Shown: positions 1-15,238 of the stretch, in pieces
Layout of the letters: every line of letters begins with the position of its first letter
Numbering within the stretch: the first letter of the stretch is position 1
Notes under the pieces: model-generated
Told to the model about the DNA's origin: nothing
Database searches by the model: none
What the model saw: the letters and a program-made list of their open reading frames with translations, nothing else
Made by a program: the position numbers and the translations under genes
Source of the DNA: a virus
Strand: one strand, 5' to 3'
IMG/VR virus record: IMGVR_UViG_3300045135_000596
Coordinates: 1-20,709 of that record
Length of the DNA stretch: 20,709 nucleotides

Positions 1-143
1 AGCCTAAGATCGGCTTCAAGACTCGTTACGGCATGATCGCTAACCCATACGTTACACAATCTGATGGTACTACTGACGGTGATACATTCACTGCTGATCG
101 TAACCAGTACTACAGAAGCGTTAAGGTAACCAATTTGATGTAA
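1..143 (+). CDS. 23: Major capsid protein gp23, C-terminal fragment
   Basis: The frame opening at base 3 gives 46 residues beginning PKIGFKTRYGMIANPY and ending SVKVTNLM before a TAA stop at 141-143. This tail resembles the C-terminus of T4-like major capsid proteins (gp23), where the K-x-RYGM-ANP stretch is well conserved. gp23 forms the hexamers of the phage head after prohead proteolysis. The start of the gene lies outside the window. A strong terminator follows at once, as expected for a very highly expressed late gene. The identification rests on a short stretch, so it is good but not certain. Confidence 0.85.
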   Translation, partial: PKIGFKTRYGMIANPYVTQSDGTTDGDTFTADRNQYYRSVKVTNLM

Positions 144-161
144 GCATCAAAAATAAAAAGA

Positions 162-210
162 ATTGCTTAAAGCAATCACTTTTGAAAGGGCTCTTCGGAG
201 CCCTTTTTTT
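162..210 (+). terminator. Tandem hairpins with rho-independent terminator after gp23
   Basis: A GGGCTC/GAGCCC stem closed by a UUCG tetraloop (188-203), extended by A/T pairs and followed by seven T residues (204-210), is a textbook intrinsic terminator. Just upstream lies a smaller hairpin ATTGCT/AGCAAT (162-176). Together they should end the capsid transcript and separate it from the cytochrome/monooxygenase genes, which have their own late promoter. Confidence 0.93.
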
Positions 211-257: not shown

Positions 258-265
258 TATAAATA
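258..265 (+). promoter_or_regulatory. T4-type late promoter (TATAAATA)
   Basis: This is an exact TATAAATA octamer 32 bp upstream of the first cytochrome/monooxygenase start codon. In T4-like phages this is the only essential element of late promoters and is read by host RNA polymerase carrying gp55, which is encoded in this window. It implies late expression of the two downstream cargo genes. A GAAGG ribosome-binding site (287-291) sits six bases before the ATG. Confidence 0.85.
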
Positions 266-297
266 GTATACATTCATTCAATTAACGAAGGTGTATT

Positions 298-1584
298 ATG
301 AAAAAACTACTATCGATGGTTACATTTTTTGCTGTAGGATTTGTTGCAGGCGGAGTCAACGCACAAACATATACAGAAGAAGTGGCAAATATTATTAACG
401 AGAACTGTGTAGTATGTCACCGTCAAGGCGGCATCGGTCCAATGAGTTTCGAAACTTATGAGCAAGTGCGTCCATGGGCACCACTGATTGCTATGAAAGT
501 GGCTTCACGAGAAATGCCTCCTTATGCTTACGATCATGGTATAGGAGTACAAGACTTACAAGGTGATTGGCGACTAGCACAAGAAGACATTGACACAGTA
601 GTAGCATGGGTCAACAGCGGTTCTATTTACGGTGACGCTGACACAGTAGTACAAGCACCAGAGATGAGAGATCCAGAAGCATGGAACTTTGAAGGCGACT
701 TCGGTGCACCAGACGCAATCATCCCTAGTGTAGCAATTGATATTCCTGCAAACGGCAATGATCTATGGCACAAGCATCTAGTACCAAGCGGTCTCACTGA
801 AGATCGTTGCATCAAAGCAGTACAAGTAAAGCCACGAGGTGCAGCAAAGTCTGTAGTACACCACGCTAACTCAAGTATTCTCACAGCAGAAGGGCGTGAA
901 GGCATGCTCACCGAGTACGCTATGGGAAAGTGGGGAGAGATTGTACCAGAAGGAGTTTGTCGTACAATCCCAGCAGACGCTCAAATCAGTTGGGATATTC
1001 ACATGTTCCCAGGTGGTCTTGGAGCAATGGCCCCAGGTTCTGTCATCAAAGACAATGTGGTAGAGATTGGTCTTTGGTTGTACACCGAAGAGGAAAGCGA
1101 ACAATTAAAATACAAACAAGACTTGAGTTTGTATCGCTTAGGGGATCAGGACGACCTAGTTATCCCACCGAATGGATATGCAATGACACAAGGTTTCCAT
1201 TCTTTCGACCATCCTGTGCGTTTAGATAGTTTTCAGCCACACGGTCACTTGCGTATGAATGCAGCAAGTCTAGAAATCTTCTATCCTGAAACTGGTCGTA
1301 CAGAACAAGTCAGTCAGATTTCTAAGTGGTCAGCAACATGGCATCACAGTCATTTGTATGCTCCTGAAGCAGCACCATTAATTCCAGCAGGCGCAGTTAT
1401 CATTCTCAAGCAGTGGTACGATAACACGGCAGCGAATCCAAACAACCCAGATCCAGATATGTTTGTAATGGGTGGTTCACGCACAGGTGATGAGATGACT
1501 CACGCTTGGCTTGCTATTACTCATTTAGATGACGAAGGATTTGAACAATTGAAATCACAGAGGATGATAGCAGGAAATGACTAG
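298..1584 (+). CDS. Exported cytochrome c / type II copper monooxygenase-like protein 1
   Basis: This 428-aa protein has an N-terminal signal peptide (Lys-rich start, hydrophobic core, predicted cut after VNA-23 region). Next comes a c-type haem site C37-x-x-C-H41 with a likely distal Met in REMPP (Met73). The rest matches the dicopper layout of peptidylglycine/dopamine monooxygenases: H188-H189 and H235 for one copper, H315-x-H317 and Met400 (GDEM) for the other. Known members of that superfamily hydroxylate substrates using copper, oxygen and an electron donor; here the fused haem domain could supply electrons (inference). It overlaps the next gene by 8 bp and follows a late promoter. It is unrelated to any T4 structural gene and was probably acquired from a bacterium. 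The substrate is unknown. Confidence 0.85.
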   Translation: MKKLLSMVTFFAVGFVAGGVNAQTYTEEVANIINENCVVCHRQGGIGPMSFETYEQVRPWAPLIAMKVASREMPPYAYDHGIGVQDLQGDWRLAQEDIDTVVAWVNSGSIYGDADTVVQAPEMRDPEAWNFEGDFGAPDAIIPSVAIDIPANGNDLWHKHLVPSGLTEDRCIKAVQVKPRGAAKSVVHHANSSILTAEGREGMLTEYAMGKWGEIVPEGVCRTIPADAQISWDIHMFPGGLGAMAPGSVIKDNVVEIGLWLYTEEESEQLKYKQDLSLYRLGDQDDLVIPPNGYAMTQGFHSFDHPVRLDSFQPHGHLRMNAASLEIFYPETGRTEQVSQISKWSATWHHSHLYAPEAAPLIPAGAVIILKQWYDNTAANPNNPDPDMFVMGGSRTGDEMTHAWLAITHLDDEGFEQLKSQRMIAGND

Positions 1585-2827
1585 ACTAAACGCAGCAGTA
1601 ACTACATTTGGCATACTAGTTTTACTTGCAGGCGCAAGAGCACAAGCAGATGAGATTGATTATGCGAGAGATGTTGCTCCTATTTTTGTAGAGCAATGTC
1701 AATCGTGTCACAGAGAAGGTGGTATTGCTCCATGGGCAATGACTAACTATCAAATGCTACAAGGCTTTGCACCTGCAATAAAAGAAGCTATCGTTGAGAA
1801 GCGTATGCCTCCAGGTCAAATTGATCGTAAGTATGCAGGCACAATTATCAATCACAGAACTCTAAGCAATAGAGAGATTGATACTATTGTAGAGTGGATT
1901 GACGCAGGCGCACCTGTTGAGGGAGATGTTGATCCTCTAACAGAAACAACTTACTCTACTTCAGAGTGGGTTCACGGCGAGCCTGATATGATTGTTGAAG
2001 TGCCACCACAAGAGATTCCAGCATTTGGCACAATGGGTCCTAATGCGATTCCATACAGATATACTAGTGTTGATCTTGGTCTCACAGAAGACAAGTGGTT
2101 GCGTGGATCACAGTTCTTGCCTAGCGAGCCTACTGTAATGCATCACATGCTGAACACAGTAAATATTCCAGGTGAGCGTAATGGTAACTTGTTAGGCGCA
2201 CAGGGCGAAGGACAAGGCGATATGAACTATGCTACTATTAGCGCATATGTTCCTGGCGGTGATCCTGATTACTATGACGAGAACACCGGTGGTTTGTTAC
2301 GAGCAGGTTCAATTGTGAATCTACAGCTACACTACACTCCTGATGGTACAGCAAGAACTGACAGAGCAAGAATCGGACTATACTTCCATGATGAAGGCGT
2401 AGTACCAGAAGAGAGAATGGCAGGCGATTGTGCTTGTATCTTCCCTAACAACTGGACACCGATTCCACCCTTTGATCCTAACTTTGTACAGACAGCAGAG
2501 ATTACTCTAAAGAATGATATTAGACTACACACTTTCTTACCACACATGCATTTCCGTGGCAAGAGTATGCGAGCTACTGCAATCTACGCTGACGGCACAA
2601 GGGAAGAACTAATAGACATTCCTAGGTATGACTATGCTTGGCAGTTGTCATACACATGGAAAGAGCCTAAGTTTATTCCTGCAGGTACTCGTTTATTTGT
2701 AGAAGGTGCGTTTGATAATAGTACAGACAATCCAAAGAATCCAGACCCCGCAAGAGAAGTACCGTGGGGACAGATGTCGGAAGACGAAATGTTCTTCGGT
2801 GCATTTACTTGGAAGAATGTAGAATAA
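1577..2827 (+). CDS. Exported cytochrome c / type II copper monooxygenase-like protein 2
   Basis: This 416-aa protein is a diverged paralogue of the preceding one with the same architecture. It has a signal peptide (hydrophobic residues about 7-20, AxA-type cut near ARA-22), haem site C41-x-x-C-H45 and Met77 in KRMPP. Copper-ligand candidates are H189-H190, H252 (LHY), H323-x-H325 and Met405 (EDEM). The C-terminal stretch with DNSTDNPKNPDP and WGQMSEDEM is characteristic of bacterial homologues annotated as copper type II ascorbate-dependent monooxygenase-like. Its start lies inside the upstream gene, so the two are translationally coupled and may form a periplasmic pair. It is followed by a structured spacer rather than by another metabolic gene. 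Reaction and substrate cannot be told from sequence. Confidence 0.87.
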   Translation: MTRLNAAVTTFGILVLLAGARAQADEIDYARDVAPIFVEQCQSCHREGGIAPWAMTNYQMLQGFAPAIKEAIVEKRMPPGQIDRKYAGTIINHRTLSNREIDTIVEWIDAGAPVEGDVDPLTETTYSTSEWVHGEPDMIVEVPPQEIPAFGTMGPNAIPYRYTSVDLGLTEDKWLRGSQFLPSEPTVMHHMLNTVNIPGERNGNLLGAQGEGQGDMNYATISAYVPGGDPDYYDENTGGLLRAGSIVNLQLHYTPDGTARTDRARIGLYFHDEGVVPEERMAGDCACIFPNNWTPIPPFDPNFVQTAEITLKNDIRLHTFLPHMHFRGKSMRATAIYADGTREELIDIPRYDYAWQLSYTWKEPKFIPAGTRLFVEGAFDNSTDNPKNPDPAREVPWGQMSEDEMFFGAFTWKNVE

Positions 2828-2968: not shown

Positions 2969-3073
2969 ATGAAAATCGGCGCAAAGACAGCCAAACTTGA
3001 AGCAATCGTTACTTTTGCATTGGCATTAGTAGTGACTTCACCCGTAGTATTCGCAGCAATCGCAGTAATCTAA
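2969..3073 (+). CDS. 34-residue hydrophobic peptide
   Basis: ATG at 2969 is preceded by AAGGA (2957-2961) at a good 7-base spacing, and TAA ends the frame at 3071-3073. The peptide has a short basic start (MKIGAKTAK) and then about 24 almost uninterrupted hydrophobic residues including SPVVFAAIAVI, so it is a probable single membrane-spanning segment or a cleaved leader. It lies alone between the monooxygenase pair and the tail tube gene, with its own variant late promoter and leader hairpin. I do not recognise a family. It could be a holin-like or membrane-signalling micropeptide, but nothing proves function. Confidence 0.6.
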   Translation: MKIGAKTAKLEAIVTFALALVVTSPVVFAAIAVI

Positions 3074-3112: not shown

Positions 3113-3694
3113 ATGGTTGATGTATTAGCAAATGTCACAGAAGCAACATGGGACGCTGGGAATCCTGGAGAACTAGACTATCTTAAACCGAATGGCTTTA
3201 AGTTTGTAGTTCACAACCTTCCCAATGTCTCATTCTTCTGCCAATCCGCAAACATACCTGATGTTTCAATGGGTTCACCTCAAGTACCAACACCTCTCGT
3301 AGATTACTATGAGCCGGGTGATAAACTTGCATACGGCGAATTGTTGATTCGTTTTATCATTCAAGAAAACATGGCTAACTATAATGAGCTTTACGAGTGG
3401 CTCATCGGTCTTGGCTTTCCTGAATCGCACAAGCAGTATACAGACTTTTCTAATAGTCAGTCTTACCGCTTTCCTGATATAAATCCTGCAAAACAGAAGT
3501 CGTTAGGAAACTTTAGTGACGCATCTCTTTTCGTATTAGACTCCAACAATAATCCGCAGATAAAAATTGTGTTTCAGGATGCGTTTCCTGTGTCTCTTAG
3601 CGGCCTTGAGTTTGAATTGTCTTCTGGCAACACTGATTATTTTCAAGGAGTTGCTGCGTTTAGATACAGACAGTACAAGATAGAGACACTATAA
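3113..3694 (+). CDS. 19: Tail tube protein gp19-like
   Basis: This 193-aa protein has the pattern of T4-like tail tube subunits: an N-terminal NGFKFVVHNLPNVSFFCQSANIPDV-type segment (residues about 27-52), the PTPLVDYYEPGDKLAYGELLIRFI block (about 60-82), then MANYNELYEWL and a late FELSSGNTDYFQGVAAFRYRQYKI segment. gp19 subunits stack as hexameric rings to form the inner tube of the contractile tail. It is somewhat longer than T4 gp19 (163 aa). It has its own late promoter, and its stop codon overlaps the next one. gp54 (tube cap) shares distant features, but position and motifs favour gp19. Confidence 0.85.
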   Translation: MVDVLANVTEATWDAGNPGELDYLKPNGFKFVVHNLPNVSFFCQSANIPDVSMGSPQVPTPLVDYYEPGDKLAYGELLIRFIIQENMANYNELYEWLIGLGFPESHKQYTDFSNSQSYRFPDINPAKQKSLGNFSDASLFVLDSNNNPQIKIVFQDAFPVSLSGLEFELSSGNTDYFQGVAAFRYRQYKIETL

Positions 3695-3721: not shown

Positions 3722-4165
3722 ATGATTACATTGAACGAGTTGCAGGATCAGTGGAAAGCTGACTGCAAAATTGATGAGTTGAATCTCGGTAGTGAGTCTA
3801 CAAAAACTCCAGAGTTACACGCTAAGTATCTCAACCATCTCACGACTTTCAAATTACAACTGAGAAAATACGAAGCTCAGATGTATTCTTTGCGCCGTAT
3901 TAAATGGCGCTACTTTAGAGGCGAACTGTCTCAACAAGAACTGGTAGATTTAGGTTGGGAACAATACTTGGGTCCTCAGCCTCTGAAAAATGAGATGCAA
4001 GAGTATCTCGACAGTGATTCAGATATTATAAAAATCGTAGATAAGATTGAATACATTAAGGCGTGTTTATATCAGTGCGAGTTTATAATGAAGTCTTTGA
4101 ACAGTAGAACTTGGGATATCAAGAACGCTGTAGAGTGGACCAAGTTTACTAACGGATTGATGTAG
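3722..4165 (+). CDS. uvsY: UvsY-like recombination mediator
   Basis: 147 aa, close to T4 UvsY (137 aa). It is charged and mostly helical, with basic patches (YSLRRIKWRYFRGELS near residues 56-71) and acidic segments. UvsY loads the UvsX recombinase onto single-stranded DNA displacing gp32. The call rests on size, character and above all on its position directly before uvsW, the order also found in T4-like genomes. It has a late promoter, and its TAG stop overlaps the GTG start of uvsW by one base. No diagnostic catalytic motif exists for this family. Confidence 0.75.
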   Translation: MITLNELQDQWKADCKIDELNLGSESTKTPELHAKYLNHLTTFKLQLRKYEAQMYSLRRIKWRYFRGELSQQELVDLGWEQYLGPQPLKNEMQEYLDSDSDIIKIVDKIEYIKACLYQCEFIMKSLNSRTWDIKNAVEWTKFTNGLM

Positions 4166-5649
4166 TGATAAAAGTAACGAAAAGAAATGAAGCATATCTA
4201 AAGATTGATACTGATCCTGGCACAGGTCAAGAGCTATGCGATTTCTTTACATTTGATGTTCCTGGTGCTAAGTTTATGCCTTCGTACCGTTCTCGTTTGT
4301 GGGACGGCAAGGCTAGACTTTACAACATGTATCGTCAAGAACTCTATGTCGGTCTGCTGCCTTACTTAAAAGAGTTTGCACAGACGCTAGAGTACAAGTT
4401 AGAAGTAGATATAAAAGACATAGGCGATCCTGTGTCAACGCAGTATGTAGAAAACTTTGCTAAAAAACTAAAACTACAAAGCGGAGGCAAGGACATTGAG
4501 ATCCGAGACTACCAAATCGAAGCTGTCAGACACACAATCAACGAAGGGCGAGCACTCTTACTCTCCCCTACTGCCTCTGGCAAGTCTCTCATTATATACA
4601 GCCTTATGCGTTACCATCAGCATTTGGGCAGGAAGCAACTCATCATTGTGCCAACAACCTCACTCGTTGAGCAAATGTATGGGGACTTCCAAGACTATGC
4701 AACAGCAGATGCCTGGAAGGTCTCTGAGAACTGTCATAGAATCTACGGTGGAAAAGAAAAGTCAAACGAATATCCTATAACGATATCTACCTGGCAGTCT
4801 ATCTACAAGTTTCCTAAGTCTTGGTTTGAGCAGTTTGATGTTGTGTACGGAGACGAAGCACATAACTTCAAAGCAAAGTCTCTTACTACCATTCTAGACA
4901 AGTGTGTGAATTCGCCTTATCGTATAGGTACTACAGGTACGCTTGACGGCACTAAGACGCATAAACTAGTACTAGAAGGCATCTTCGGCACAGTAAAAAA
5001 AGTAATTACGACAAAGAAGCTGATGGAAGACAAGAGTGTAGCGAGTCTTGCTATCACTTGTTTGCTTCTAGACTACAGTGATCCTGATCGTCAAGCAGTA
5101 AAGAAGATGACCTATCAAGAAGAGATGGACTGGATCGTTACTAATCCTAAGCGAAACAACTTCATTCGCAATCTCTGTATATCCCAGAAAGGCAATACGC
5201 TAGTTCTGTTTCAGTTTGTAGAGAAGCACGGAAAGATTCTTAATGAGATGATAAAAGAAAAAGTCGCTGAGGGCCGTAGTGTGTTCTTTGTATATGGCGG
5301 TACAGACACCGAACAGAGAGAAGAGATACGAGCATTGACTGAGAAAGAGAATGATGCTATTATCATTGCTTCGTATGGTACATTTTCAACAGGCATAAAT
5401 ATTCGTAACTTACACAATATTGTTTTTGCTTCTCCGAGTAAAAGTAGAATCAGAAACTTACAAAGTATTGGTAGAGGGTTGAGAAAAGGCGACAACAAGA
5501 CTTCTTGTGAGCTTTTTGATATTGGTGATGACTTATCTTGGAAGTCTAAAAAGAACTACACGCTTGGACACATGGTTGAGCGAGTAAAAATATATAATGA
5601 AGAAGGGTTTGAATATAAAATGGTAAAGGTACCTATCAGTGGAAACTAA
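4165..5649 (+). CDS. uvsW: UvsW-like recombination DNA helicase
   Basis: 494 aa, close to T4 UvsW (503 aa). It is a superfamily 2 helicase: N-terminal substrate-recognition domain (residues 1-110), Q-like RDYQ motif (114-117), Walker A SPTASGKS (134-141), DEAH (230-233), TTGT motif III, then motif VI QSIGRGLRKG near residue 435. UvsW unwinds R-loops and branched DNA, helping the switch from origin-dependent to recombination-dependent replication. The start is GTG at 4165, overlapping the uvsY stop by one base and with only a weak ribosome-binding site, so it is probably coupled to uvsY. A consensus promoter at 6100-6128 on the minus strand points back into this gene. Confidence 0.93.
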   Translation: MIKVTKRNEAYLKIDTDPGTGQELCDFFTFDVPGAKFMPSYRSRLWDGKARLYNMYRQELYVGLLPYLKEFAQTLEYKLEVDIKDIGDPVSTQYVENFAKKLKLQSGGKDIEIRDYQIEAVRHTINEGRALLLSPTASGKSLIIYSLMRYHQHLGRKQLIIVPTTSLVEQMYGDFQDYATADAWKVSENCHRIYGGKEKSNEYPITISTWQSIYKFPKSWFEQFDVVYGDEAHNFKAKSLTTILDKCVNSPYRIGTTGTLDGTKTHKLVLEGIFGTVKKVITTKKLMEDKSVASLAITCLLLDYSDPDRQAVKKMTYQEEMDWIVTNPKRNNFIRNLCISQKGNTLVLFQFVEKHGKILNEMIKEKVAEGRSVFFVYGGTDTEQREEIRALTEKENDAIIIASYGTFSTGINIRNLHNIVFASPSKSRIRNLQSIGRGLRKGDNKTSCELFDIGDDLSWKSKKNYTLGHMVERVKIYNEEGFEYKMVKVPISGN

Positions 5650-6814: not shown

Positions 6815-7702
6815 ATGAAAGTACGATTCTCTGAGATATTTTATAGTTTTCAAGGCGAAGCTGAACTTGCCGGCACTCCGACTACATGGATACGGTTCTT
6901 TGGCTGTAATCTTGAGTGTAACGGATTCGGTCAAGAAAAGCCGGCAGAGCCAGAAACATATAAACTACCTTACAAAGACTATGACCCTTCTAATATTATT
7001 GCAGTAGAAGAGTTGCCTGTGTGGGAATACGGCTGTGACTCTTCATACTCTTGGTCAATGAAGTACAAGCATCTAGCACAAGATACTACGCCGGAAGGTG
7101 CGTGTGACAAACTAGAAGCACTTCTGCCTCATGGCAGATTTACTCATCCTCACACAGAACAAGAAAACATGTTGGCATTCACAGGCGGCGAGCCGATGCT
7201 TCAACAGAAACAAATGAAAGCTATCGTGAACGAGTTTTTGATTCGTGGCAATGTCCCGAAACTCATCACAGTTGAAACAAACGGAACTAAGAAACTAAAC
7301 AAAGAACTACAAGAGTTTATCAATGTCTACCTGTCTGAGATGGGTGTACGATGGCATTGGTCTATCAGTCCTAAAATACTACACACTTCAGGTGAAAAGA
7401 ACGCAGTTGATGTAGACATGTACATGAGCTATATCGAAGGCACAAAGAGCACTGGATGCCTGAAGTTTGTTTGCAACGGCACAGAAGAATCTTGGAATGA
7501 AATAGATTACTTTGTTGCTGACACGATGCTCTACTGCAAGGATGCAGAGATACCTATGCCTGATGTTTGGATTATGCCAGCAGGAGCTACGAAGGAAGAG
7601 CAAGAGCAAGTCGCTCACATTGCGAACGAAGCAATGCAGCGAGGGTATAAAGTAGCGACACGAAATCACGCTTATGTTTATGGAAATCAGATAGGGACTT
7701 AG
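6815..7702 (+). CDS. queE: 7-carboxy-7-deazaguanine synthase (QueE-like radical SAM enzyme)
   Basis: QueE converts 6-carboxytetrahydropterin (CPH4) to 7-carboxy-7-deazaguanine (CDG) using S-adenosylmethionine and a 4Fe-4S cluster. This 295-aa protein begins with the QueE signature EIFYSFQGE (residues 7-15) and GTPTTWIRFFGC. It also has the GGEP motif (124-127), VETNGT and SPK. The cluster cysteines are C31, C35 and C74 (GCDSSYSW), giving C-x3-C-x38-C: about 36 residues are inserted where compact QueE has x2. This insertion probably forms a lid near the cluster. It is first in a cassette with folE and dpdA. A NrdG-type activase is an alternative, but the FQGE start and CDSSYSW fit QueE better. 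Confidence 0.87.
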   Translation: MKVRFSEIFYSFQGEAELAGTPTTWIRFFGCNLECNGFGQEKPAEPETYKLPYKDYDPSNIIAVEELPVWEYGCDSSYSWSMKYKHLAQDTTPEGACDKLEALLPHGRFTHPHTEQENMLAFTGGEPMLQQKQMKAIVNEFLIRGNVPKLITVETNGTKKLNKELQEFINVYLSEMGVRWHWSISPKILHTSGEKNAVDVDMYMSYIEGTKSTGCLKFVCNGTEESWNEIDYFVADTMLYCKDAEIPMPDVWIMPAGATKEEQEQVAHIANEAMQRGYKVATRNHAYVYGNQIGT

Positions 7703-8129: not shown

Positions 8130-8326
8130 AAAAGAGTAGCGTTATAAGAAAAGTGCCTTGCTTTGGCGACGGTAATAACGGACCTGATACAATGTATGTC
8201 GTAGACATGTATGAAAACGAACGCAAAGTAGGCACTAATGAATTTCCTGGCAAGAGTATACACTTTGTAGAATCATTTGTAGAAAATTGGGAACAAGGCA
8301 TTTTAGATGATAAGCGAACAGATTAA
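8126..8326 (+). CDS. 66-residue protein of unknown function
   Basis: The start is set at ATG 8126, which overlaps the phosphoribosyltransferase stop as ATGA and has GGAAG just before it (8119-8123 region); an upstream in-frame start at 8096 would bury it deeper in that gene. The product begins MKKSSVIRKVPCFGDGNNG and ends acidic (GILDDKRTD). It overlaps folE by 20 bases. I recognise no family. Its location between two pathway genes suggests it is an accessory to the cassette, and the single Cys in PCFGDGNNG is notable but unexplained. Confidence 0.65.
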   Translation: MKKSSVIRKVPCFGDGNNGPDTMYVVDMYENERKVGTNEFPGKSIHFVESFVENWEQGILDDKRTD

Positions 8327-8990
8327 AACAAGACTGCAACGAGCAGGTAAACGATTTCATGCGGCAGATAATATCTCTGAATTTTTGCATGAAGGAGACC
8401 GTGAAGCTCTCATAGAAGAATTGACTGAAAAGTTTGAAGGTGTTCTCAGTAGTCTAGTTATCGATACTAAGAATGATCCTAACAGTCAAGGCACAGCAAA
8501 GCGTCTATCTAAAATGTATGTAAATGAGCTAATGTCGGGTCGTTATGATTCAATGCCGAATGCAACAGCCTTTCCTAATCATGTAGATGGGGGATACGAA
8601 GGCATGTTGGTTGTTCGTAGTGAGTTAAAGTCTATGTGTTCTCATCATCATCAGCCTGTTAGTGGTGTTGCATATATAGGTATTATTGCTGCTGATAAAC
8701 TTATTGGTCTCTCTAAGTATACTCGTATTGCACAGTGGTGCGCTCGCCGAGGAACTTTACAAGAGGAGCTATGCAACGATATTGCAAAAGAAATACAGTC
8801 TGCTACCGGCAGTGAAAACGTAGCAGTCTATATACAGGCAACACATGGTTGCTGTGAGAATCGTGGTATTATGGCACACAGTTCGTTGACTCAAACAACA
8901 GTGTTGAGGGGCAGTTTCTTCAAAGACCCTAGCACTAAGAAAGAGTTTTTTGATAACATTAAATTGCAACAGGAACATTCGTGTAAATGA
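8307..8990 (+). CDS. folE: GTP cyclohydrolase I (FolE)
   Basis: FolE opens the guanine ring of GTP to give dihydroneopterin triphosphate, the first step of folate and 7-deazaguanine synthesis. 227 aa with all key blocks: GTAKRLSKMYVNELMSGRY (62-80), zinc site C111-S-H-H-H followed by QPVSGVAYIGI, GLSKYTRIAQWCARR (134-148), and THGCCENRG (179-187) holding the second zinc Cys and the catalytic region. AAGG at 8295-8298 is the ribosome-binding site. It ends with ATGA into the exonuclease gene. In this context it most likely supplies QueD and QueE rather than folate. Confidence 0.93.
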   Translation: MISEQIKTRLQRAGKRFHAADNISEFLHEGDREALIEELTEKFEGVLSSLVIDTKNDPNSQGTAKRLSKMYVNELMSGRYDSMPNATAFPNHVDGGYEGMLVVRSELKSMCSHHHQPVSGVAYIGIIAADKLIGLSKYTRIAQWCARRGTLQEELCNDIAKEIQSATGSENVAVYIQATHGCCENRGIMAHSSLTQTTVLRGSFFKDPSTKKEFFDNIKLQQEHSCK

Positions 8991-9529
8991 GAATAAAGCC
9001 TACTGACAGACAAGTTGTAGTAGACCTGGAGACACTTAGCACTCGCCCTAATTCGTGCATTGTTTCTATAGGTGCAGTCGCTTTCAATCTGCAAGATGGC
9101 ATACTAGACAACTTTTTTATCAATGTAGATGCATCTTCTAGCAAGTCACATGGTCTGCATATAGATTCAAACACTATTGAGTGGTGGCAGAAACAATCTA
9201 AGGAAGCGCAACGATCTTGGCAGAAGGATCCTCAACCTCTGGAATATGCGCTAGAAAAATTTGCTGAGTTTTATCAAAAGGGAAATCCGATATGGGGTAA
9301 CGGCTCTAGTTTTGATATTACAATATTAGAGTCTGCATATTATGCTGTTGGTTGGGATAAAGACAAGCAGTACGGCGATCATTTGCCCTGGAAGTTTTGG
9401 GATATATATGATATGAGAACATTAACTTCTATTCTTGGTCGTAAGCTAGAAAAGACAGGTGTCAATCACAATGCATTGGACGATGCTATGGCAGAAGCCA
9501 AACTATTAATTGAGATGTTAAAATCATGA
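8987..9529 (+). CDS. DEDDh-type 3'-5' exonuclease
   Basis: 180 aa with exonuclease motifs in order: V-D13-L-E15-T (motif I), WGNGSSFD110 (motif II) and H161-N-A-L-D165-D (motif III, DEDDh type). Such enzymes use two metal ions to trim 3' ends of DNA or RNA. The compact size and GLHIDSNTIEWWQKQS segment fit the Rv2179c-like 3'-5' exoribonuclease group. T4 DexA is a functional counterpart. It is joined by ATGA overlaps to folE upstream and dpdA downstream, so it is expressed with the DNA-modification genes. It may act on unmodified host nucleic acid or on RNA, but this is not shown by sequence. Confidence 0.85.
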   Translation: MRIKPTDRQVVVDLETLSTRPNSCIVSIGAVAFNLQDGILDNFFINVDASSSKSHGLHIDSNTIEWWQKQSKEAQRSWQKDPQPLEYALEKFAEFYQKGNPIWGNGSSFDITILESAYYAVGWDKDKQYGDHLPWKFWDIYDMRTLTSILGRKLEKTGVNHNALDDAMAEAKLLIEMLKS

Positions 9530-10965
9530 AACTAGAATATGTTGCTTCGGGTACTTCTTTTATGTGCCTTGGCAAGCCTGTTATAAGCAAAGATCCGCAG
9601 CTTGCTGATGTTATAAACAATATTTTTACAGAGTTTTTCGGTGATCAACCTAATCATACGTTTTCTATATTATATAATGCATGGGCAGAAAAAAGCTATG
9701 GTGAAAGACTCAGTAAGTTCAAGACATCTGTACACAACCTACATGCTGACTCTGGCGGTCTGCAAATGGTTACTCTATCTCATAAGCTAAAGCCCGGTAC
9801 GAATATGGACGAACTTCGTGAAGAAGTTTACAACAATCAAGCAGACTGGGCAGATGTTGGTATGTCTTTCGATGAGATACCTGTTGTTGTGCTGCCTAAC
9901 ATAAAGAAAGTTTTTGATAAAGAGTTAAATAAAGAAGTAGAAATAGATGTAGGTTCTGATAGGAATGACACTCGTTTTAGGTATTTTGATAGAGAAAATC
10001 GTCAAAAATACGCCAAACAAACTGCTGAAAATATAAAGAGACAGATAGAAGTCTTTAAAGCTAAAAACAGCACATGTAAACCTTTTATGATTTGTCAAGG
10101 TGGTGACTTAGAAACGTATCTAGAGTGGACTAATACTATCTTAGAAACTGTGCCGAAAGAAGATCACAAAAATATCGCAGGCGTTGCTATGGGAGGTGCT
10201 GCATTAGGCACCGGTCCTCTAGAAGATATACAGAAAGCATTCTTTGCAAGTCAAGTTCCAGTTAGGGACGAAAACGGAAAGCTAAATCTTCACGTTCTAG
10301 GAGTAGGTTCAGCATCACGAATGATTCCTTATCTAATCTTCTTACAGAATGGTTTATATGGAAATGTTCATATCTCTTATGACTCTACTACACATTCACG
10401 AGCAGTAGACACTGGTATGTACTATATGCTAGGAGAAATAAAGAATGGTGTATATGTAGAGGGCAAGCCCAAGACATTAAACTTTACACGAGCTACAACA
10501 AATGAAGATGTTCTGCCGGGAGAAAAGCCAAAAAACAGAGAGCCTGATGTAAACTATAGAGTCATGTTAGAAGATGTAAAAAAATATTATCCTTTGGATC
10601 TAAGTTTGGATAGGTTTCATGAAATTCTCAATGTACCGAGTGTACCTTATCTTAAGAAATATGGCTCTTTGGTAGATTGGTATGAAGTAAGAACTGCGTT
10701 TTGTTGTGCAAGTATCAAAAATTTCATGTGTACTATAGAAAATCTGATGCATGATAAAGAGGCTTTAGTAGCACTAGCAAATACTAAATATCCTGCAGGA
10801 GCCGCTGAGCAATTATTTGATGTGAAGGATATCGATACTTTTAATGTTTGGTTAAATAAATGGTCTAATGTGTTTGAAGAAAAGAATCTTTCTAAGAGAA
10901 TCGTTCACTCCTATGAAGATACTGATTTAGGAAACAATATGGAAGTTGATTTGTCGGGGATATGA
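9526..10965 (+). CDS. dpdA: DpdA-like transglycosylase (7-deazaguanine insertion into DNA)
   Basis: 479 aa, related to tRNA-guanine transglycosylases. HADSGGLQ (residues 73-80) matches the TGT base-binding DSGG(F/Y)Q motif. ICQGG (189-193) and VAMGGAALGTG (220-230) match the VQGG and GLAVGG regions. Following LGVGSAS, the segment HISYDSTTH (282-290) puts Asp286 at the nucleophile position. The canonical TGT zinc ligands C-x-C-x2-C are not evident; in DpdA enzymes the target is DNA, where guanine is exchanged for a 7-deazaguanine. The neighbourhood (queE, folE, queD) supports DpdA over a tRNA enzyme. It is coupled by ATGA on both sides. The exact base inserted is unknown. Confidence 0.85.
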   Translation: MKLEYVASGTSFMCLGKPVISKDPQLADVINNIFTEFFGDQPNHTFSILYNAWAEKSYGERLSKFKTSVHNLHADSGGLQMVTLSHKLKPGTNMDELREEVYNNQADWADVGMSFDEIPVVVLPNIKKVFDKELNKEVEIDVGSDRNDTRFRYFDRENRQKYAKQTAENIKRQIEVFKAKNSTCKPFMICQGGDLETYLEWTNTILETVPKEDHKNIAGVAMGGAALGTGPLEDIQKAFFASQVPVRDENGKLNLHVLGVGSASRMIPYLIFLQNGLYGNVHISYDSTTHSRAVDTGMYYMLGEIKNGVYVEGKPKTLNFTRATTNEDVLPGEKPKNREPDVNYRVMLEDVKKYYPLDLSLDRFHEILNVPSVPYLKKYGSLVDWYEVRTAFCCASIKNFMCTIENLMHDKEALVALANTKYPAGAAEQLFDVKDIDTFNVWLNKWSNVFEEKNLSKRIVHSYEDTDLGNNMEVDLSGI

Positions 10966-11495
10966 TATTGAACAACTGTGTGAAATTAGATTACAATTTT
11001 GATATAACTAATTTAAAAAAAGAATGCCACGACATTATTGAAAAGGTAGGTCTTCACTCTGAAACAAATCAAATTTCTTTAAAACACACCGCTGAAAGAG
11101 ACGATAGAAATCTTTGGTATGAAGGCGTAGGTTCTTTTAGAAAAGAAACTAATTTAAAAAGATTGCAACAAAAAGATTTTACTGAATTAAATAAAAATAT
11201 TTTAGATACATACATCGGTCAGGTGTATAAAGAAATAACAAAAGAATATGACACAGGAAGATGTCGAATAATGGGTCTTCCTGGTCAAAAATGTATGACT
11301 CTTCATTACGATATGACTAAAAGAATTCATATACCAATAGAAACGAATGAAGACTGTTTGATGATTATTGATAACGAAGTTATACACATGCCCGCCGACG
11401 GCAGCGTATACCTGACAAATACTTTCAAGAGGCATACTGCGTTGAATGCTAATTGGGATTTTATGAGACTACATCTAGTCTTTGATTTGCTATAG
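10962..11495 (+). CDS. 2OG-Fe(II) oxygenase-like protein coupled to dpdA
   Basis: 177 aa. The C-terminal half reads as a double-stranded beta-helix with iron triad H115-x-D117 and H158 (KRHTALN), plus R169 (MRLHLVF) placed to bind 2-oxoglutarate, like aspartyl/asparaginyl beta-hydroxylase-type phage oxygenases. Such enzymes hydroxylate or demethylate proteins, nucleic acids or small molecules. It starts inside dpdA (ATGA) with a GGGGA ribosome-binding site, so the two are co-translated. The gene is visibly richer in A/T than its neighbours, which hints at separate acquisition. Action on the deazaguanine base is an attractive inference only. Confidence 0.75.
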   Translation: MILNNCVKLDYNFDITNLKKECHDIIEKVGLHSETNQISLKHTAERDDRNLWYEGVGSFRKETNLKRLQQKDFTELNKNILDTYIGQVYKEITKEYDTGRCRIMGLPGQKCMTLHYDMTKRIHIPIETNEDCLMIIDNEVIHMPADGSVYLTNTFKRHTALNANWDFMRLHLVFDLL

Positions 11496-13858: not shown

Positions 13859-14795
13859 AAATGTATTAGTGACAGGCGGTAACGGATACATAGGTTATCA
13901 AACGGTATTGCAACTACAAGAAAGTGGTTACACTCCAATCGTTGTTGATTGGATCAATGATGAATTGAAATCGTCATATACTTATTCGTTTGATGACAAC
14001 CGTGTTCTTGATATCATGAAGTTTCATGAAATAGAAACTGTCATACATTTTGCAGCAGATCATGAAGTAGGCCGCAGTGTTGAAGAACCTTCTGTGTTTT
14101 ACAATAATAATATTGTTGCAAGCATTAAGTTCCTAGATCGATGCATACAAGCAGGAGTTAAAAACTTTATTTTTAGTAGTTCTAGTAGCGTGTACGGGGA
14201 CAACGTAGAGTTTCCGACAACAGAGTCTACTAGAAAAAATCCTATGTCTCCTTATGGCAGGACTAAGGATATGTTTGAAGAAATTCTAAAAGATTATGAA
14301 GATGCATATGGTATACAAACACTCTCTCTTAGATATTTCAATGCTGCCGGCGCTGACCCTCTCATCAGACATGGTTATGTGCAGGAACCTCAGTCACACT
14401 TAGTTCCTATTCTTGCAAGATGCTTCGGTCAAGACTTGCCCTTTACTGTATTTGGAGATGACTACGACACTCCAGACGGTACTTGTATTCGTGACTACAC
14501 TCATGTATGGGATATTGCAAATGCACATATCGCAGCTATTGAGTATCTAAAAGATGGCGGTCCTCATCAGGCATTCAATATAGGCAAGGGCAATGGCGAA
14601 AGCGTTTTAGAAGTTATAAATGCTTTTGAGAGATACACAGGGAAACAAATTGAAGTTAAGACAGGCACGAGAAGAGCAGGTGACCCTCCTAAAACTTTTG
14701 CTGATATTACACTAGCAATTAATGAACTAAAGTGGTTCCCTAAATATACATTAAATGATATCGTAGAACACGCTTACAAGTGGGAGAACAGATAA
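13851..14795 (+). CDS. galE: UDP-glucose 4-epimerase-like (GalE)
   Basis: 314 aa short-chain dehydrogenase of the extended type. NAD-binding VTGGNGYIG (residues 7-15), FAADHEVGRSVEEP (68-80), catalytic SSSSSVYG (109-116), Y135-x3-K139 (YGRTK), RYFNAAGA, and the GalE-type C-terminal DGTCIRDYTHVWDIANAH. GalE interconverts UDP-glucose and UDP-galactose, or related sugars. It is slightly shorter than E. coli GalE (338 aa). It overlaps the glycosyltransferase by 8 bases, so both likely serve one glycosylation reaction. Sugar specificity (glucose, N-acetyl sugars or a uronic acid) is not decided by these motifs. Confidence 0.88.
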   Translation: MSKNVLVTGGNGYIGYQTVLQLQESGYTPIVVDWINDELKSSYTYSFDDNRVLDIMKFHEIETVIHFAADHEVGRSVEEPSVFYNNNIVASIKFLDRCIQAGVKNFIFSSSSSVYGDNVEFPTTESTRKNPMSPYGRTKDMFEEILKDYEDAYGIQTLSLRYFNAAGADPLIRHGYVQEPQSHLVPILARCFGQDLPFTVFGDDYDTPDGTCIRDYTHVWDIANAHIAAIEYLKDGGPHQAFNIGKGNGESVLEVINAFERYTGKQIEVKTGTRRAGDPPKTFADITLAINELKWFPKYTLNDIVEHAYKWENR

Positions 14796-15238
14796 TGCAT
14801 TACAGTACAAAACATTACGGTCACAACATCGGTTTGTCAGCAGTCTTTCGTCAACCGAATGCAGATCACTCACACTGTCATTTACTACACGGCTACAGTC
14901 TAGCATTTACTTTCACTTTTGCTTGCAAAGAACTAGACAACAAGAACTGGGTAGTTGACTTCGGCGGTTTAAAACAATTGAAGGCATGGCTAGAAGATAG
15001 CTTTGATCACAAAGTTGTTGTAGATAAAAACGACCCGGCACTTGGTACTATGATAGGCTTAGAGTCAAAAGGACTAGCAGAAATTCGTGTGTTTGACGGC
15101 GTTGGTGCAGAGAAGTTTGCAGAACACGCATGGGCATTTGCTGATCAGTTAGTTAGGAAAATGACAGATGACCGCTGTTGGTGCGTGAAAGCAGAAGTAG
15201 CAGAACACGGTGCTAACTCAGCTATCTACGAGGCATAA
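14795..15238 (+). CDS. queD: 6-carboxytetrahydropterin synthase (QueD-like)
   Basis: QueD turns dihydroneopterin triphosphate (FolE product) into CPH4, the QueE substrate. The start is ATG 14795 (TAATG with the galE stop) with GGGAG at 14782-14786; a GTG at 14780 is less likely. The 147-aa protein shows the catalytic Cys/His cluster HSHCHLLHGYS (25-35), VVDFGGLK (53-60), DHKVVV, and a C-terminal AEVAEHGANSAIYE where the Glu contacts the pterin. The usual HGH zinc motif reads HGY, a variant I also associate with a QueD-like subfamily. It lies about 3.8 kb from dpdA but completes the FolE-QueD-QueE set. Confidence 0.85.
   Translation: MHYSTKHYGHNIGLSAVFRQPNADHSHCHLLHGYSLAFTFTFACKELDNKNWVVDFGGLKQLKAWLEDSFDHKVVVDKNDPALGTMIGLESKGLAEIRVFDGVGAEKFAEHAWAFADQLVRKMTDDRCWCVKAEVAEHGANSAIYEA

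Follow-up and report, generated by a model that had tools for sequence, protein, structure and literature searches.

The question raised by this locus is why a T4-like phage should carry, between the genes for its major capsid protein and its tail tube, two overlapping genes for what appear to be exported proteins, each with a haem-binding motif and a set of copper ligands. The locus lies in a 20.7-kb virus record (20,709 nt) from a T4-like phage, which was analysed at its full length and is referred to here as the window. The genes are arranged in the order gp23 end, hairpin, TATAAATA, A, B, a 34-aa ORF, a second TATAAATA, gp19, uvsY, uvsW, and gp55 (Table 1), ORFs A and B overlapping by 8 bp. 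A preliminary description of this DNA had proposed that A and B are cytochrome c/copper monooxygenase-like proteins that a T4-like phage exports late in infection, and that no phage gene set of this type had been described.

Table 1. Positions of features in the gp23-gp19 region of the window
Feature	Position	Strand	Basis or comment
gp23 (major capsid protein), 3' end	3..143	+	Frame reads PKIGFKTRYG...TNLM-stop
Terminator-like hairpin AAAGGGCTC-TTCG-GAGCCCTTT and T run, between gp23 and A	185..210	+	Read from sequence
TATAAATA, T4-type late promoter motif, exact	258..265	+	Conserved 5' of A in T4-like loci
Gene A, putative exported monohaem cytochrome c/PHM-DBM-fold copper protein, 428 aa	298..1584	+	ORF, fold, bacterial identity
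A predicted Sec signal peptide (MKKLLSMVTFFAVGFVAGGVNA)	298..363	+	By eye
A haem-binding motif CVVCH, residues 37-41	406..420	+	Invariant in 68/68 viral A
A CuH ligands His188, His189	859..864	+	Invariant
A CuH ligand His235	1000..1002	+	Invariant
A CuM ligands His315-Gly-His317	1240..1248	+	Invariant
A CuM ligand Met400 in GDEM	1495..1497	+	Invariant in viral A; 66/67 bacterial rows
Gene B, putative exported monohaem cytochrome c/PHM-fold copper protein, 416 aa	1577..2827	+	Paralogue of A
B predicted signal peptide (MTRLNAAVTTFGILVLLAGARA)	1577..1642	+	By eye
B haem-binding motif CQSCH, residues 41-45	1697..1711	+	Invariant in 54/54 viral and 34/34 bacterial B
B CuH ligands His189, His190	2141..2146	+	Aligned with PHM His107, His108
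B CuH ligand His252	2330..2332	+	Aligned with PHM His172
B CuM ligands His323-Met-His325	2543..2551	+	Aligned with PHM His242, His244
B CuM ligand Met405 in EDEM	2789..2791	+	Aligned with PHM Met314
34-aa hydrophobic peptide ORF MKIGAKTAKLEAIVTFALALVVTSPVVFAAIAVI, between B and gp19	2969..3073	+	
gp19 tail tube gene	3113-3694		phrog_45, E 7e-33

The gp23-gp19 Locus

An assembly or binning artefact that fused bacterial and phage DNA would be one explanation of such an arrangement, and the preliminary description had named misassembly as a finding that would overturn it. Such fusions do exist: the one match in a search of genome contigs, L153 (MAG contig JALRBG010000283.1, Pseudomonadales bacterium HM.19), is itself chimeric, with GC-rich bacterial DNA over the first 4.2 kb or so (junction at about 4110-4210) followed by a phage-like truncated A and B. 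It was rejected as a bacterial carrier of the pair, the genuine bacterial relatives coming from a separate search of genomes. However, a search of viral genomes for the pair beside gp23 and gp19, as had been suggested, recovered it in many T4-like contigs; order and spacing are identical in many independent viral contigs, the gp23-A-B-gp19 order being seen, for example, in L007, L026, L032, L035, L051, L057, and L072, and the virus-like promoter 5' of A is conserved. Misassembly is therefore excluded, hardly any probability being left to it, and the locus is a real phage locus. The gp23 C terminus directly 5' of A is 89-98% identical in related T4-like loci. Counterparts of the 34-aa ORF 3' of B, 64-94% identical, occupy the equivalent position in many T4-like loci; this peptide may be a small membrane partner or the product of an unrelated late gene, and its membership of the cassette may go either way.

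The UvsW protein of the window has its closest counterparts in Kyanoviridae phages that infect OM43, Synechococcus, and SAR11 (53-56% identity). In cultured relatives the gp23-gp19 site is empty: in two of these phages, Melnitz-3 and Mosig, the next gene starts within about 100 bp of gp23, where A and B lie in the window. Elsewhere in the window, a QueE-like gene (6815-7702), GTP cyclohydrolase I (FolE, 8307-8990), a TGT/DpdA-like gene assigned by eye (9526-10965), and a PTPS/QueD-like gene (14780-15238) look like a 7-deazaguanine DNA-modification set, with database support for FolE and PTPS only. An aspartyl/asparaginyl β-hydroxylase-like protein (PF05118, E 5e-7) is encoded at 10962-11495, and 2OG-Fe(II) oxygenases recur near uvsW/gp46 in the Pelagibacter phage Mosig.

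Fold and Ligands of the Copper Domains

A and B share one layout, consisting of a signal-like start, a CXXCH motif with a conserved downstream Met, and about 290 residues of β-sandwich; they are paralogues with 27% identity whose profiles align along their length (E 1e-64). In a fold search with the model of A, DBH was the top match (Z 19.1), followed by 25 PHM entries (Z 18.2-15.4), whereas the first unrelated fold reached no more than Z 8.4; the PHM/DBH match spans residues 135-414, and Foldseek gave E 7e-12 for PHM. With the model of B, ranks 1-26 were all PHM or DBH chains (Z 11.6-10.1, the next match being at Z 7.3), and the weaker score relative to A is attributed to the low confidence of the B model (pLDDT 57). 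Both proteins thus have the two-domain β-sandwich of PHM, and both have the CuH (three His) and CuM (two His and one Met) ligands. For B, the ligands were identified by aligning rat PHM, the residue letters of which were verified against PDB entry 1opm, with the B-family profile, in which all six copper ligands were matched; for A, they were assigned through the A-B profile alignment. The alignment of B with the single PHM sequence by hhalign was weak (E 0.008, probability 5%) yet correct at every ligand, and A gave no alignment at that level. Within the limits of fold matching and ligand alignment, the copper geometry of PHM, the comparison that had been proposed as a check of the original assignment, is retained in both proteins, which presumably load metal and act as catalysts.

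Sequence databases give little hint of this relationship. The curated Pfam cut-off was not reached, B scoring 11.9 bits against Cu2_monoox_C (cut-off 23) and A having no match; 19 of the 35 B-family members match Cu2_monoox_C at E values of at most 0.01, the best being 8.5e-6. Searches with A and B of PHROGs, NCBIfam, and PDB sequences returned nothing useful, and none of the matches that Foldseek listed for viral structures was convincingly PHM-like (TM about 0.2 at best).

The likeness to PHM/DBH (Cu2_monooxygen/Cu2_monoox_C) extends over a fold of about 235-260 residues, all six copper ligands, and the local motifs MHHML/VHHML, LQLHY/LQVHY, HMHFRGK/HTHHLGK, and DEM, but identity is only 11-16%, and A and B add an N-terminal cytochrome c domain. 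The fold and ligands might be those of a true peptidylglycine α-amidating enzyme that acts on peptides; however, the positions of PHM Arg240, Asn316, and Tyr318, which we take to be the residues that bind the peptide carboxylate, are occupied by Leu321, Phe407, and Ala409 in B and by Gln313, His402, and Trp404 in A. Because these peptide-binding residues are missing, peptide amidation is very improbable, and the substrate should differ.

Haem Domains and Predicted Export

In both proteins the CXXCH motif is accompanied by an invariant downstream Met (Met73 in A and Met77 in B), the combination of CXXCH and distal Met that characterises class I-type monohaem cytochromes c, and this Met is presumably a haem ligand. 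The cytochrome c Pfam matches of A and B are weak (E 0.006-0.008), and the cytochrome domain of A is modelled with low confidence. The signal peptides were judged by eye from hydrophobic cores and plausible cleavage after VNA and ARA, and they suggest that A and B are located in the periplasm. Fold, ligands, haem motifs, and signal-like starts agree, and together they uphold the earlier assignment of A and B as putative exported cytochrome c/PHM-like copper proteins.

Late Promoter Motif

The exact T4-type late promoter motif that had been noted ahead of A is present, and it also occurs before gp19 (3079) and uvsY (3690). Its three sites in the window compare with 1.15 expected, and 10 of 100 shuffles reach three, so that its frequency is mildly above chance. 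The comparative signal is clear: TATAAATA lies at most 120 bp upstream of A in 16 of 17 T4-like loci versus 5 of 49 other loci. The pair would thus be made late in the T4-like phage, alongside the structural proteins. In a non-T4 virus group (L010, L012, L091, and similar loci), a different motif, TGTGTTTAAATA(T/G), recurs upstream of A and is possibly the group's own promoter.

Distribution and Selection among Viruses

Relatives of A and B are encoded in 259 and 120 IMG/VR stretches, respectively. There were no protein matches to either among 50,697 phage records, and none in cultured phages and plasmids; the carriers are many uncultured, probably marine, viruses of several lineages. The haem motif and all copper ligands are unchanged in 68 of 68 distinct viral A and 54 of 54 distinct viral B proteins, and with median dN/dS values of 0.09 (A) and 0.10 (B) and a maximum of 0.21, purifying selection acts on both. 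A is directly upstream of B in all 45 cases, and 14 of 57 A genes are without B; since B never occurs without A upstream, B depends on A. Shortly downstream of one solitary viral A, a taurine-catabolism-dioxygenase-like protein (phrog_24590, E 4e-71) is encoded (L119, 9861-11012).

Outside T4-like contigs, the pair is found near genes for ribonucleotide reductase, NAD-dependent ligase, or large endolysin/virion proteins. On both trees, at least 10 changes of the label T4-like/other are needed, which indicates exchange between viral lineages. The description of A and B as a gene pair of a T4-like phage therefore stands for this locus but not as a restriction to T4-like phages, the pair being common to unrelated viral lineages.

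Bacterial Relatives and Probable Host

Of 61 genomes sampled from one genus, 60 have homologues of A, as do 106 of 137 genomes of its family (Pseudomonadales), with 1-16 copies per genome and up to 86% identity to A of the window. At E 1e-40, there were none beyond the query genome in 368 class-wide or 397 phylum-wide genomes. A phylogeny against these bacterial homologues, as the preliminary description had advised, places viral A within the diversity of this one family's A proteins. A first tree indicated several separate captures of A, but a better model did not reject a single viral clade (AU p 0.66), so that A may have been captured once or several times. Given the gp23-gp19 setting and the nesting of A among bacterial proteins, A is a host-type metabolic gene in a verified viral genome and a candidate auxiliary metabolic gene; the promoter motif and the purifying selection hint indirectly that it may be expressed and of use during infection. 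Gene similarity suggests that the host of these viruses is most likely a member of that Pseudomonadales family, the family to which the genome containing L153 also belongs.

The bacterial A proteins (about 445 residues, uncharacterised) have the same domain layout as viral A, but many of their genes are in tandem and adjoin genes for MFS transporters, hydrolases, and cupins, whereas viral A lies beside B under viral control. An exported protein of about 310 residues without a Pfam match adjoins A in 13 of 20 bacterial regions (e.g. L245, 11096-12031) and is a probable bacterial partner of A; it is absent from the viral loci, in which the bacterial A neighbours c1-c8 were also sought and not found.

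Viral B forms one group on its tree. Its nearest bacterial relatives, redoxin-cytochrome c-PHM proteins of about 570-620 residues, are 54% identical to it in the cytochrome c and PHM part and share all ligands, but they have an N-terminal AhpC/TSA-Redoxin domain that is missing from the shortened viral B. In the 20 bacterial regions read, these closest relatives do not adjoin A; the B-like gene found next to A has 35-40% identity to viral B and is a paralogue further removed from it. The viral A-B pairing thus looks as if it had been assembled by viruses. The redoxin domain of the bacterial relatives, and the presence of haem and copper sites in each protein, could point to periplasmic redox or copper handling, in which O2, peroxide, or NO is reduced via haem c, or copper is stored, and the infected cell is protected or its respiration sustained. 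However, this domain is exactly what viral B has lost, and the monooxygenase ligand set, including the Met of CuM, is fully conserved; we consider such a role decidedly unlikely.

Proposed Function

The explanation that we favour, and to which as a whole we give about an even chance of being right, is that A and B are exported, haem-fed copper oxygenases with the PHM/DBM fold, a host-derived A and a shortened B, that act in the periplasm late in infection. Viruses would have taken A from one Pseudomonadales family, their likely host, and joined it to the shortened B, and in the T4-like phage its own promoter would drive late transcription of the pair. PHM and DBM activate O2 at two uncoupled copper sites to hydroxylate a C-H bond, and the electron source of the animal enzymes is ascorbate. 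By analogy, the two copper sites of the viral proteins would activate O2 in the periplasm for the oxidation of an organic compound at a C-H bond, and the fused cytochrome c would shuttle electrons between the periplasmic electron chain of the host and the copper sites, haem c taking the role of ascorbate as electron carrier. B would need A in order to work; it may be a partner subunit or act on the next step. The substrate would be one of the compounds dealt with by the many A paralogues of the host family. The bacterial copies are multiplied and have transporter, hydrolase, and cupin genes as neighbours, an arrangement suggesting that diverse organic compounds are oxidised outside the cytoplasm; it is this gene neighbourhood that suggests a catabolic role for the A family, and the benefit to the virus would come through host catabolism or energy supply. 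Points that speak against this explanation are the weak hhalign score of B, the low model confidence for B and for the cytochrome domain of A, and the lack in viral loci of the exported protein of about 310 residues.

The same late promoter motif and export signals are also what would be expected if the pair altered a component of the host envelope (a lipid, glycan, or surface protein) late in infection, blocking superinfection or helping lysis rather than serving metabolism. A viral function different from the bacterial one is compatible with the tree, and viral B is a group of its own without the redoxin domain. Nevertheless, bacterial proteins of up to 86% identity at 1-16 copies per genome fit a metabolic role better, and envelope-related neighbours do not recur, so that an envelope role appears unlikely. 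Electron extraction, detoxification of a compound, and envelope modification, the three uses suggested in the preliminary description, stay conjectural. A more specific form of the oxygenase explanation can be put forward tentatively, as possible but doubtful: that the two proteins are a virus-built haem-copper oxygenase, of host-type A and a virus-specific redoxin-less B that always needs A, and that this cassette has been passed between unrelated lineages infecting one family and performs in the periplasm of dying cells a reaction that is, in this form, foreign to the uninfected host.

Relation to Known Viral Metabolic Genes

The earlier statement that no phage gene set of this type had been described agrees with the present searches: no report of such viral genes was found in the open-access literature (subscription papers and supplements being outside the scope), and the phage records likewise contained none. 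Known viral metabolic genes act mostly inside the cell. Since A and B have a known fold and relatives in bacteria, they are to be regarded as a viral metabolic cassette and not as a new category. Marine viruses encode oxidase and reductase genes such as amoC, norB, and nirK (PMC8115048). These, too, are auxiliary metabolic genes that specify metal enzymes of energy metabolism, but the enzymes belong to unrelated protein families, and none is a haem c/PHM-type copper protein.

The pair would be an exported haem-copper oxygenase cassette that is strictly conserved, is found in several viral lineages, and is linked to a protein family that is a hallmark of one bacterial family. Many uncultured viruses thereby gain a candidate host. 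The pair also suggests that an uncharacterised family of bacterial haem-copper oxidases is important enough, for the host or for the viruses that infect it, to have a place on phage genomes. Identification of the substrate would open bacterial and viral metabolism alike.
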